Shown one piece after another: positions 11,494 to 14,718 of a stretch of 27,018 bases of DNA. Every line of letters begins with the position of its first letter. Position 1 is the stretch's first letter. Under the pieces are notes generated by a model that saw only the letters and a program-made list of their open reading frames with translations, was not told where the DNA came from and ran no database searches. The DNA is from a virus. Made by a program: the position numbers and the translations under genes. The DNA is taken from positions 1-27,018 of IMG/VR virus record IMGVR_UViG_3300044949_002234; one strand, 5' to 3'.

Positions 11494-11787
11494 TCAGTTA
11501 CCGAGGTAGAGGTAGTCGTAGGCGCCGGGTTCTTCGGCGCAGTTGCACGCCCAGATCCACAAGACGCGCTTGCGGTTCTCGTTGTGGTTGGCCAGATCCC
11601 GGGCATCCCATGCGCCGAAACCGCGCAGGTACTCGCGGAAAAGCCAGGCGGGGCCGTCGAAATCGAGTCGGTCCACCCATGCGGATACGTCTTCGTCGCG
11701 GTCGCCGGATCCGGAGCAGTCACAGACGCACTCGGGGGGCAGTTGCCTCAGGGATTCGCGGCCGTGGAACCAGGTGTTGCGGTACAT
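11494..11787 (-). CDS. Small Trp/Cys-containing hypothetical protein, 97 aa
   Basis: Starts MYRNTWFHGRESLRQLPPE, followed by CVCDCSGSGDRDEDVSAWVD, FREYLRGFGAWDARDLAN and WIWACNCAEEPGAYDYL. Five cysteines in C-x-C pairs could bind metal. It is the first gene downstream of the noncoding RNA terminator, so it would be the first gene translated after read-through. The longer in-frame start at 11835 would run through the hairpin and terminator and is unlikely. Confidence 0.72.
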   Translation of the reverse strand: MYRNTWFHGRESLRQLPPECVCDCSGSGDRDEDVSAWVDRLDFDGPAWLFREYLRGFGAWDARDLANHNENRKRVLWIWACNCAEEPGAYDYLYLGN

Positions 11788-11811
11788 GCTGAACTCACAG
11801 CTAGAGGGACG

Positions 11812-11830
11812 TGAGATGCAAAGCATCTCA
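11812..11830 (-). other. Perfect hairpin upstream of the left operon
   Basis: The arms TGAGATGC and GCATCTCA (8 bp) are separated by AAA. It lies between the terminator of the noncoding RNA and the first gene of the left operon. There is no T tract, so it is more likely an RNA processing or stability element in the leader of the gene at 11494. Confidence 0.6.
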
Positions 11831-11833
11831 GCC

Positions 11834-11864
11834 AAAAGACCCCCGGACGCAGTGCGCCAGGGGG
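11834..11864 (-). terminator. Rho-independent terminator of the noncoding RNA
   Basis: On the minus strand a CCCCC/GGGGG stem continues through a short internal loop into CGC/GCG with a 3-base loop, and is followed by TCTTTT. It lies between the structured region and the first gene of the left operon, so it would set the RNA 3' end and allow read-through control of the operon. Confidence 0.72.
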
Positions 11865-12367
11865 AACTTCTGGGGGAGATGGTTTATGCGTGTGGAGCAG
11901 AGCCGAATGCTCGGTGCCACGGTTGACACGCGCAACCGTCCTATCACTCATTTGTAGTGCGGCCTGATAGGAGCGCCGCTATCTGTGCTGGGTGTGGGGA
12001 GTTGACTCACCGCGCCCGGATCTGGAGTCCGGGCACACCCCCGCCGTGAGGCGGTGCACGCTAGCCACTACTGTCTTTGGCGTCCTACACCGGTACGAAG
12101 GGTCCGCGTTCGGTTACGGGTCAACACCCACCTGAGCCTTTCGGTTGATCAACTACTCCGCCCCTCACCGGATTCAGCCCGCGTGAAAGCGGGACCGACT
12201 TGTCGGGGGTTTCGCGTTCGCTGGGGTACTAGCCCAGCTCCCTACTTATCTCAGGCCCTAGCGCCCTCGCTCCCCCAGACGGGGATAAGCGGTTCGGCGG
12301 CCGTGGCCTATTTATCGCGCAGGGCCCTGCCCCGCTCTCGGTGTTAGTGCATCGGTGGTTCTGAACT
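11834..12367 (-). ncRNA. Large structured noncoding RNA candidate (about 530 nt)
   Basis: No plausible gene occupies this stretch on either strand. It starts just downstream of a TTGACA promoter at 12374-12403 and ends at a Rho-independent terminator. Read on the minus strand it is dense in strong hairpins: GCTGGG/CCCAGC with a self-complementary 7-base loop, CCCGC/GCGGG, CCGAC/GTCGG, CGCC/GGCG, a 7-bp GCCCGGA/TCCGGGC stem enclosed by GGGTGTG/CACACCC, ACGGTTG/CAACCGT, and a GAAA tetraloop on CC/GG. The words GATAAATAGG and GATAAGTAGG, and two CGAACGCG copies, recur. The size is of the order of the large phage RNA classes GOLLD and ROOL, but I cannot match it to either. I checked for tmRNA, RNase P and tRNA hallmarks and did not find them. 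It could act on its own or as the leader controlling the left operon. Confidence 0.62.
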
Positions 12368-12585: not shown

Positions 12586-12614
12586 AGTCTGGCATGGCGC
12601 CGCGCGGCTGTCAA
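12586..12614 (-). promoter_or_regulatory. Promoter P1
   Basis: On the minus strand TTGACA (12609-12614), a 17-bp spacer, then CAGACT (12586-12591). It is the most upstream of the three promoters, with three repeat units immediately upstream (12625-12696) that could bind a regulator. Confidence 0.65.
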
Positions 12615-12624
12615 GCCACCCCAG

Positions 12625-12696
12625 TGAGTCTCATGCGTCGCACCTGAGGGGCATGAGTCTCATCGTGTCGCAAGTTGGGTCTCGCCCTGCGTCGCA
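12625..12696. repeat. Three direct repeats upstream of P1 (operator candidates)
   Basis: Each unit has a TGAGTCTCA-type word followed 4 to 6 bases later by GTCGCA. The words are exact at 12625-12633 and 12654-12662 and degenerate at 12676-12684. GTCGCA is at 12637, 12667 and 12691. The first two palindrome centres are 29 bp apart, close to three helical turns. Related words occur in the divergent region at 16700-16747. Nothing else of note is seen in the remaining A/T-rich stretch 12697-12824. Confidence 0.55.
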
Positions 12697-12824
12697 ACGA
12701 GAATGGGGTAGAGGGGGATATGTCACATCCTGGGCTAGAAAAACTGTATATAAATAAAAGTTGTAGGGGGGTATGCTTTTGATATGGAAGGCATTGAAGT
12801 AGAAGAATTTCTTGTCTGGTAGCG

Positions 12825-13715
12825 CTACTCGTTAAACGCATCCCAGCTATACGTGAGCTCTACTCTTAGTTTGTGCATAGCTTTTTTGTAGATCGATGAG
12901 ATGCAATAGCGGGATATACCGAGCTCGTCGGATAGCTCGTGGCGGCTGCGTTGCTCAAAGTGGATCGCTTGCACCACAAGGAGTTGCGTAGGGTCGAGGG
13001 TCGCAAGGGCTTTTTGTAGGAGCTCTTCGCGCTCGATGAGGGATACGGTGAGTTCTGGGCTTTCTGACGGAGTCGGGTTGTCAGAGCTAAGCACCTCGGA
13101 GATGGGTGCATCAGAGAGTTGACATAGGGCGTCAATGGAGGTGCAGCTGGTAATGGTGCAGCTGATCAAGGTCTCGGTGATGCGCTCAGAGGGAAGCTCG
13201 AGCTCGGTGCTGAGCTCGTCGATAGAAGGGGGTCTGCCGTAATTGGCAGTCAGCGTGTGCATAGCGCGTTTGATCTTGGTAGAAAGATCCTGCACGTTTA
13301 TTGGTAGCCGTATTGTGCGGGAGGAGTTATAGATTGCGCGTGAAATAGATTGGCGGATCCACCAATAGCTGTAGGTGCTGAAGGCGTAGCCGCGGGTTGG
13401 GTCAAAGAGCTCGATGCCTCGGATGAGACCGAGGCTGCCTTCCTGGATCAGATCGCTGAGTTCAAGGCCTCGGTTCTGATATCGCTTGGCGAGATGGACA
13501 ACTAAGCGCAGGTTGGTGCGCACCATGATGTCCAGGGAGCGCTTGCCGGGGCGTGCAATGTGAGCGGGGGCGGCGGAGCGGTCGGGCTCGGTGGAGCCGG
13601 GTGGGGTGTAGTCGACCCATGCGCGGATGCGATAGGCGTGACGGAGTTGGGCTTCGCGCGAGAGGATCGGATGCCGAGAGATGTCACTGAGGTACTGGGA
13701 GATGAGGTCCGACAT
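12825..13715 (-). CDS. Sigma-70 family RNA polymerase sigma factor
   Basis: 296 residues, group 2/3-like. Region 1.2 lies at the N-terminus (YLSDISRHPILSREAQLRHA). Region 2 spans about residues 64-133 with NLRLVVHLAKRYQNRGLEL, LIQEGSLGLIRGIELFDP and FSTYSYWWIRQSISRAI; the WWIRQ core that reads and melts the -10 is intact. Region 3 follows (RTIRLPINVQDLSTKIKR). Region 4 (236-288: TLDPTQLLVVQAIHFEQRSR ... ISRYCISSIYKKAMHKLR) is clearly divergent from the usual -35-binding helix. It would redirect host RNA polymerase to phage promoters. The start at 13715 lies 6 bp after the preceding gene. It could be a host-derived sigma gene adapted by the phage. Confidence 0.95.
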   Translation of the reverse strand: MSDLISQYLSDISRHPILSREAQLRHAYRIRAWVDYTPPGSTEPDRSAAPAHIARPGKRSLDIMVRTNLRLVVHLAKRYQNRGLELSDLIQEGSLGLIRGIELFDPTRGYAFSTYSYWWIRQSISRAIYNSSRTIRLPINVQDLSTKIKRAMHTLTANYGRPPSIDELSTELELPSERITETLISCTITSCTSIDALCQLSDAPISEVLSSDNPTPSESPELTVSLIEREELLQKALATLDPTQLLVVQAIHFEQRSRHELSDELGISRYCISSIYKKAMHKLRVELTYSWDAFNE

Positions 13716-13925: not shown

Positions 13926-14110
13926 TAGAGGGTGATTTTTAGCTGAACGTAGTATGTGGTGCTGAAGGAATCGGCGGTGGAAGCTGGAGTGATTGTTAAA
14001 GCTTCGACGGCTACTCCAGTGATCTCGCTGAAGTCGTTGAGCACTCTGGCTATGTGGTCTTCAACGTTGGTGGAGTGGGCACGCAATTCGGCTACGGATA
14101 GTGAGCTCAT
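13925..14110 (-). CDS. Small hypothetical protein, 61 aa
   Basis: Starts MSSLSVAELRAHSTNVEDHI and ends with a beta-like segment TTYYVQLKITL; the middle is acidic (LNDFSEITGVAVEAL). ATGA overlap with the dNMP kinase gene upstream. The function is not recognised. Confidence 0.7.
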   Translation of the reverse strand: MSSLSVAELRAHSTNVEDHIARVLNDFSEITGVAVEALTITPASTADSFSTTYYVQLKITL

Positions 14111-14718
14111 ATGACTTCGGAGAAATAATCAAACGCGAGGACGTCGTCTACTTGGCTGTATAGCGCGTAAAGGGATTCGTCGTTTTCGATGATGTGGTGG
14201 AAGGCGAGGGAGCAGTCGTTCTCGGGGTCAGTCAGGGCGCGAAGGTGATCTAGGCCGCCTTCAGAGGCGTGGTTGGTGTTGCGCTCAGTTCCAGGGCGCG
14301 TGACTTTCCAGAGATGGGCGCCGAAGCGATCGAGGAGGGCGGCTTCGTTGAGAAAGCGCATGTCATCTACAACGACGCGCTCGATGCCTTGGAGCTGGAG
14401 GCGCATGTAGCGGGAAGTCCAGCAGCGGAGCCAGATGTCGGGGTGGACGCAGCCGCGGCCCCACTCGGTGCCCAGGGTGCGAAGCAGGTGGCGAGCGTCG
14501 ACGTTGTCATCGATCTCGGGGAGAGGGGCGGTTTTGGCGACGTGGGTCGCGTGGTGCGCGTCCTGAGGGCTATAGCCGAAGTCATAGAGCAGCGAGCTGA
14601 TCATTGACTTGAGCGGTTCGGCAAAGCTGAGGTGGGTGAAGCCGTGCTGTGTGACCAGGTGGTCGGCGACGGAAGATTTGCCGCTGCCGGCGGCGGGAGA
14701 GTAGATACCGATGAGCAT
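14107..14718 (-). CDS. Deoxynucleoside monophosphate kinase
   Basis: 203 residues. Predicted to phosphorylate dNMPs, including the dTMP made by ThyX, using ATP. A P-loop lies at residues 7-16 (SPAAGSGKSS). HLSFAEPLKSMISSLLYDFG and LLRTLGTEWGRGCVHPDIWL match phage dNMP kinases of the T4 gene 1 type, and VVVDDMRFLNEAALLDRFGA is the expected nucleotide-binding/lid block. It starts at the ATG at 14718, two bases after the upstream stop. It sits in the cluster with exonuclease and SSB genes, consistent with DNA replication. Confidence 0.9.
   Translation of the reverse strand: MLIGIYSPAAGSGKSSVADHLVTQHGFTHLSFAEPLKSMISSLLYDFGYSPQDAHHATHVAKTAPLPEIDDNVDARHLLRTLGTEWGRGCVHPDIWLRCWTSRYMRLQLQGIERVVVDDMRFLNEAALLDRFGAHLWKVTRPGTERNTNHASEGGLDHLRALTDPENDCSLAFHHIIENDESLYALYSQVDDVLAFDYFSEVI

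Follow-up and report, generated by a model that had tools for sequence, protein, structure and literature searches.

What is encoded by a gene-free block at the head of a phage operon? The block in question occupies approximately positions 12367-11824 on the minus strand of a viral DNA of 27,018 nucleotides (IMG/VR record IMGVR_UViG_3300044949_002234; this whole stretch is referred to as the window), where it lies between a sigma factor gene and the next operon. A preliminary description, made from the sequence of the window, had read it as a large structured noncoding RNA enclosed by a perfect TTGACA promoter and a Rho-independent terminator, and had wavered between an independent RNA and an antitermination or attenuation leader. 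To our knowledge, very few large structured phage RNAs have been found, and GOLLD and ROOL are without established function.

Results

Comparison of relatives reveals a structured noncoding RNA

On its RNA strand the block holds no open reading frame (ORF) of at least 60 aa and no conserved protein gene, and is gene-free as first described. An antisense ORF of 97 aa is interrupted by an in-frame stop in the relative L033 (loci of relatives carry the prefix L), and a protein-coding gene in the block was ruled out because no ORF is conserved. The stems singled out earlier are all present (GCTGGG/CCCAGC, CCCGC/GCGGG, GCCCGGA within GGGTGTG/CACACCC, ACGGTTG/CAACCGT and a GAAA tetraloop), as are the repeated words GATAARTAGG and CGAACGCG. 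Folding energy does not go beyond chance on the minus strand (z = -1.0; 16 of 100 shuffles equally good) and gives z = -0.4 on the opposite strand; it was dropped as a proof of structure. A sigma-70 scan found no canonical -10 boxes in the promoters of the block. As energy does not set the block apart and the scans for promoters and terminators are negative, the case for an RNA rests on the comparison of relatives.

Some 40 IMG/VR contigs were retrieved with the sigma protein (41-99% identity), followed by more distant ones; a search with the conserved 3' module yielded 46 contigs, and later searches added L127, L130, L137, L203-L208 and L210. About 45 IMG/VR relatives share a common layout, in which the sigma gene is followed by tandem TTGACA promoters, a minimal ORF, an RNA of 500-700 nt, a 3' module and the operon; in its fuller form, an AT-rich stretch and TGAGACTCA-like repeats come after the sigma gene and a ribosome-site hairpin comes after the 3' module. 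Promoter layout, covariation and conservation across about 45 contigs together lend strong support to a large structured noncoding RNA, and we regard the block as a structured RNA with near certainty.

In the window, the gene for the phage RNA polymerase sigma factor lies at 12825-13715 on the minus strand (Pfam Sigma70_r2/r3/r4; PHROG sigma factor, 5e-56), and a sigma gene stands on the same strand, 0.9-1.7 kb upstream of the RNA, in every locus whose fetched DNA reaches it. Three promoter-like direct repeats follow on the minus strand: P1 (12586-12614; TTGACA-N17-CAGACT), a member of direct-repeat family D1 whose position is kept in relatives; P2 (12494-12522), TTGACA then TGTGCAATGCT; and P3 (12374-12403), TTGACA then TGTGCCACACT, the last before the RNA. 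The perfect TTGACA promoter box reported previously is indeed found, at 12403-12398 (minus strand), as the third of a tandem three (12614, 12522, 12403). A TTGAC(A/G) box precedes the RNAs of relatives too, usually with two or three such promoters.

Downstream of the block, roughly two dozen minus-strand ORFs fall within the window. The first gene of this operon (11494-11787, minus strand; 97 aa) has no family match. Its start codon is abutted by a hairpin with a ribosome-site-like loop, GCTG-UGAGUU-CAGC (11788-11801, minus strand), which is kept in relatives, GCTG...CAGC becoming GCAG...CTGC in L020, L033 and L120. With promoters up to 12614, and with 3' hairpins and the ribosome-site hairpin down to 11788, the whole unit exceeds the span first described.

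The interval between P2 and P3 (12404-12490, minus strand) holds a further conserved structured segment (GAAGCCTAGGCC...AGCUUC, of the GCAGCCGC/GCGGCUGC type), which may be a second small RNA or a leader. After the sigma gene, at about 12735-12760, lies an AT-rich element, TATTTATATACAGTTTTTCTAG, which is TACATATACATTTTTTCTAG-like in relatives; between it and P1, at about 12620-12715, are TGAGACTCA/TGCGACGCA-like repeats, similar in relatives. Element and repeats (12610-12760, minus strand) look origin-like or operator-like. Elsewhere on the minus strand the phage carries a nucleotide-metabolism set consisting of a dCTP deaminase-like protein, ThyX and a dNMP kinase (110-913, 1384-2310, 14107-14718).

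Covariation in the RNA body and the 3' pseudoknot domain

At least seven sequence classes can be told apart in the middle of the RNA. Class A comprises the window, L002, L014, L033 and L034, to which the chimera L208, class A in its 5' half, is more distantly related. The class A body (12060-12310, minus strand; alignment A5) is predicted by RNAalifold from six sequences to form 14 helices with 71 pairs, and 98.8% of cells are paired, a percentage favoured by predicting the structure from the very alignment on which it is scored. Shuffles of the changed pairs provide a fairer test, albeit with six related sequences, which are few: 8 pairs have changed on both sides, and none of 500 shuffles came as high. 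Slid versions of the structure yield no such pairs. The both-side changes are located in helices 2, 3, 4, 8, 10 and 13, and two of the stems noticed at the outset covary: GCTGGG/CCCAGC turns into GCTGAG/CTCAGC in L033 and ACTGGG/CCCAGT in L208, and CCCGC/GCGGG turns into CCCAC/GTGGG in L208. The own cores of classes B and C likewise show covariation; since MAFFT aligned the class C hairpin poorly in alignment A2, the other class C alignments were relied on.

The body is followed by a middle segment (11939-12059, minus strand), recognised by sequence, in which GGGTGTG/CACACCC surrounds GCCCGGA-CUCCAGA-UCCGGGC; it is conserved in class A and replaced in L208. The CUCCAGA loop of the window resembles a tryptophan anticodon loop, but ARAGORN was negative and the candidate tRNA was rejected.

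Next comes a 3' pseudoknot domain (11888-11938, minus strand; alignment A1). It is built from a stem, CGGTTG/CAACCG (11938-11933 / 11925-11920), and a pseudoknot helix, GCGTGT/ACACGC (11931-11926 / 11893-11888), both of which covary, and it contains a hairpin, GAGCA/TGCTC, with the loop UUCGGCUC. Across 16 sequences from classes A, C, D and E and from L088, 5 pairs have changed on both sides, in 21 cells, and the covariation score is 0.124 versus 0.066 (0 of 500 shuffles); the plain count of changed pairs was matched by 50 of 500 shuffles, and we put the weight on cells and score. A covariance model of the domain matches the window at 8e-29 and seven loci outside its training set at 1.8e-17 to 2e-15. 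The loop word GGCUCUG (about 11899-11906 in the window, minus strand) is met again close to the 3' end of most classes, some of which have no pseudoknot.

The 3' H module is a conserved pairing

What had been taken for a Rho-independent terminator is the 3' H module (11824-11881, minus strand; alignment A6), a 23-bp interrupted hairpin (CAUCUC / CCAGAAG / CCCCC ...), and here the earlier assignment finds no support: the terminator scan is negative, and the U-run is base-paired inside a covarying hairpin. Eight of the 23 pairs have changed on both sides, in 22 cells and with nucleotides of the U-run among them, a result equalled in 0 of 500 shuffles; L208, which MAFFT had misplaced, was realigned, two Ns standing in for a deletion of one pair. 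The partner of the T-run strand CTTTTGG is CCAGAAG; the corresponding strands read TGCTTGG/CCAGGCA in L208 and TGTTTGG/CCAGACA in L204. The T-rich tail itself is not preserved as a U-run (TTGCTTGG in L208; TTGTTTGG in L204, L205 and L207); selection evidently keeps the pairing rather than the U-run. Those G-U pairs that stay unchanged, or nearly so, in alignment A6 would turn into A-C mismatches if the opposite strand were the RNA, and mark the minus strand as the RNA strand. Covariation among relatives, a check suggested in the preliminary description, thus exceeds chance in the body, the 3' pseudoknot domain and the H module.

The outer 3' strand of the H module (11829-11824, GAGRTG) can find its partner at 11881-11876 or at 11819-11813, the latter within a competing hairpin, GAGATGC-TTT-GCATCTC (11813-11829, minus strand), which is pairable in all relatives looked at despite sequence change. 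Having two alternative partners, this strand implies two mutually exclusive foldings of the 3' end.

In L021, L039, L040, L045, L127, L130 and L137, the H module is replaced by a tRNA-like end. Intact versions consist of an acceptor-like stem and a T arm, UUCAA(A/G)U, without a normal D arm, and vary in sequence with the pairing kept; the T arm reads GG(C/G)GG-UUCAA(A/G)U in L130, L039, L040 and L127, and is interrupted by an insertion in L021. Neither ARAGORN nor Rfam recognises the tRNA-like ends of these relatives as tRNA or tmRNA. An extra hairpin of the TAGTGCT-TCG-AGCACTA type stands right before the H module in two distant phages, L005 (near 6460) and L205.

A minimal ORF precedes the first hairpin

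About 15 nt past the expected RNA start lies a minimal ORF, AUG-CAC-UAA (12344-12352, minus strand), which is conserved in leaders. An ORF of this kind (AUG, one codon or none, stop) occurs in 36 of 36 leaders, as against a mean of 2.8 and a maximum of 8 in dinucleotide shuffles; many of these leaders are closely related, and the independent cases are fewer, by our estimate perhaps ten. In most classes it begins 15-25 nt past the expected start. The middle codon varies (CAU, CAC, CGU, CGC, AGU, AAU or none), and so does the stop, which is UAA in 30 of the 36. L093, whose start is uncertain, was omitted from the count, and has AUG-UGA in its likely leader. Among loci fetched later, L203 carries AUG-GUU-UGA, and the distant L205 and L208 have no minimal ORF past the last promoter. 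Judged by the leaders compared, the minimal ORF is nearly, not fully, universal. A clear Shine-Dalgarno-like sequence precedes it in some relatives only (GGAG or AGGAGG in L020, L137, L045 and L038), and not in the window. Leader ORFs of two codons are capable of acting in cis, possibly via mRNA protection, and UAA has been described as their most toxic stop (PMC8708949).

A first hairpin, GCGGGGC-AGG-GCCCTGC (12319-12335, minus strand), stands 8 nt past the stop of the minimal ORF. Most classes have a hairpin in the same place, 6-8 nt after the stop, with different sequences (for example GCGGAGC-TGT-GCTCCGC and GCGGCT-GGA-AGCCGC).

RNA bodies are exchanged between related phages

The sigma genes of L004, L012, L010 and L009 are 97% identical to that of the window, yet their RNAs have class B bodies without detectable similarity. 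Conversely, the bodies of L033 and L034 are 95-97% identical to that of the window, with neighbouring genes at 73-77% and promoters at 69%. The H module is 97-99% identical throughout this comparison, and the first downstream gene is likewise exchanged between relatives. Going by these identities, RNA bodies swap between related phages as cassettes. After the sigma gene, L093, L204, L207 and L210 carry blocks that are richer in AT, differ in sequence and terminate in this H module or a diverged form of it; they would make up further classes. Matches of the class C pattern to L133 and L135 were discarded, as they resemble unrelated coding DNA and have no sigma gene.

Known families, host and occurrence

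None of the 4227 models of Rfam 15, which include OLE, group I and II introns, RNase P, tmRNA and riboswitches, matched the window and 15 loci at the gathering threshold or the window block and 12 loci at relaxed thresholds (22 loci in all); the best match in the window block had E = 0.7, far below the gathering score. The covariance models of GOLLD and ROOL remained unmatched in the window and relatives at any threshold used, and the doubt voiced earlier about these two families was correct. ARAGORN found no tRNA genes in the window or in 16 loci. No earlier description of the RNA family was found in the literature, of which our coverage was partial and excluded preprints.

The nearest cellular relatives of the sigma protein are cyanobacterial, and the sole phage record that matches the primase is Synechococcus phage S-LBS1, so that a picocyanobacterial host is likely; photosystem genes, sought as evidence of the host, were absent from 11 records. 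S-LBS1 and S-CBS3, isolated cyanophages with a related sigma gene, lack the block, so that such phages can in general do without it. Neither the window nor three other block types matched any of 50,697 phage records at the DNA level, and no exact match of the H module, as a host or prophage copy, was found in GTDB genomes. A covariance-model search turned up nothing in 299 genomes from a single cyanobacterial order, which is weak evidence, as no known positive was among them.

Discussion

Comparison of sequences establishes a fold, a minimal ORF, a fixed place after the sigma gene and an exchange of bodies. How might these belong together? We put at about one half the probability that the block gives rise to a stable, trans-acting phage noncoding RNA, which engages a ribosome at its 5' end and is released from the transcript of the operon by a cut at the 3' end. 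The tandem promoters downstream of the sigma gene would yield a long transcript, on which a ribosome would start and stop at once at the 5' two-codon ORF, probably shielding the 5' end of the RNA from nucleases. The next several hundred nucleotides would adopt an elaborate fold; this part of the RNA is probably the functional one and, because bodies are exchanged, probably acts in trans. The 3' module, be it the H hairpin or, in relatives, the tRNA-like end, is probably where the RNA is cut loose from the operon mRNA; processing is suggested by two unrelated 3' modules both resembling cutting signals (of RNase III, and of RNases P and Z).

Several points weigh against this explanation: few relatives have a clear Shine-Dalgarno-like sequence before the minimal ORF, L205 and L208 have no such ORF, S-LBS1 and S-CBS3 lack the block, and the -10 elements are non-canonical. 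In addition, the competing 3' pairings and the ribosome-site hairpin look like cis regulation. Conceivably, the block serves as a 5' UTR and governs the operon behind it (attenuation, antitermination or translation control) by means of just these elements; it stands at the operon head, and relatives keep both alternative pairings of 11829-11824 as well as the hairpin. However, the T-rich tail is not retained as a U-run, some relatives have a tRNA-like end instead, bodies unrelated in sequence occupy one position, the first gene downstream varies as well, and such a switch needs no 500-nt body. We therefore hold a cis-acting leader to be possible, but clearly less probable than a trans-acting RNA. 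With respect to the choice left by the preliminary description, cassette exchange and 3' modules that resemble processing sites speak for an independent RNA, and the competing 3' pairings keep a leader in play. An RNA directed at the ribosome, whose start-stop ORF and tRNA-like 3' end act on translation, for example by tying up ribosomes or tRNAs, would account for a nearly universal minimal ORF ending mostly in UAA and for the T arms of L130, L039, L040 and L127; it appears unlikely, since the window has no tRNA-like end, Shine-Dalgarno sequences are weak or absent in most leaders, and neither ARAGORN nor Rfam scores the tRNA-like end as tRNA or tmRNA.

Two further alternatives look to the DNA around the RNA. 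The AT-rich stretch, the TGAGACTCA-like repeats and the promoters might constitute a phage origin whose transcript primes or regulates replication, and similar sequence is indeed found at the same place in relatives; yet there is no GC-skew switch at the site, and an origin leaves body exchange and the minimal ORF unexplained, which makes it very improbable. We give still less credence to an element that acts at the level of DNA, such as a recombination hot spot or a packaging site, without a functional RNA: the very high identity of H-module DNA between distant phages and the evident recombination would fit, whereas compensatory changes keep the helices, G-U pairs are found on one strand only and the minimal ORF is conserved. 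A bolder idea, which we advance with considerable doubt, is that the block represents a novel class of phage RNA working together with the host ribosome, being loaded by way of a 5' start-stop ORF, ending in a tRNA-like structure or a long hairpin, and carrying an exchangeable core that may diversify under pressure from hosts or rival phages.

The RNA family is found at a defined genetic address, behind a phage sigma gene, and its natural chimeras mark the borders of its modules. A nearly universal 5' minimal ORF and interchangeable 3' modules provide testable handles, so that the function of large phage RNAs becomes open to domain-swap and start-codon experiments.

Relation to known systems

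In late-operon control by 6S/pR' of phage lambda, a promoter, a short RNA and a stop signal are followed by a long operon. Promoter, RNA and long operon have the same order here, but our RNA is about 540 nt long, has a conserved fold and an exchanged body, and has a covarying long hairpin as its supposed terminator. RNase III sites in the early mRNA of phage T7 are long interrupted intergenic hairpins; so is the H module, which differs in its competing pairing and whose cutting is putative. Like tmRNA and tRNA-like ends, the ends of some relatives combine an acceptor-like stem with a T arm and lack a normal D arm; they have neither a tag reading frame nor a shown CCA, are not detected by ARAGORN and are absent from the window.

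Lambda bar is an example of a two-codon minigene. With bar and with the axe-txe leader (PMC8708949), our leaders have AUG-codon-stop in common, conserved beyond chance in 36 of 36 and absent from L205 and L208; here, however, it stands at the head of a large structured RNA, and the next gene is about 550 nt away.

As to the large ornate phage RNAs, the complex fold supported by covariation places the block among their kind, of which GOLLD and ROOL form homo-oligomers or cages. ROOL, which has been described near tRNA islands (PMC12286853), is likewise a large phage RNA with pseudoknots, and differs in location, in architecture and by the lack of an Rfam match here. Many GOLLD members are longer than 800 nt and are located close to tRNA islands (PMC12286853). 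Our RNA is similarly a large ornate phage noncoding RNA with a conserved 3' part and a variable 5' part, but measures 500-700 nt, follows a sigma gene, has no tRNA gene beside it, and combines a minimal ORF with exchangeable bodies. The best reading is thus of a new and modular RNA family, of the same kind as GOLLD and ROOL but unrelated to either.
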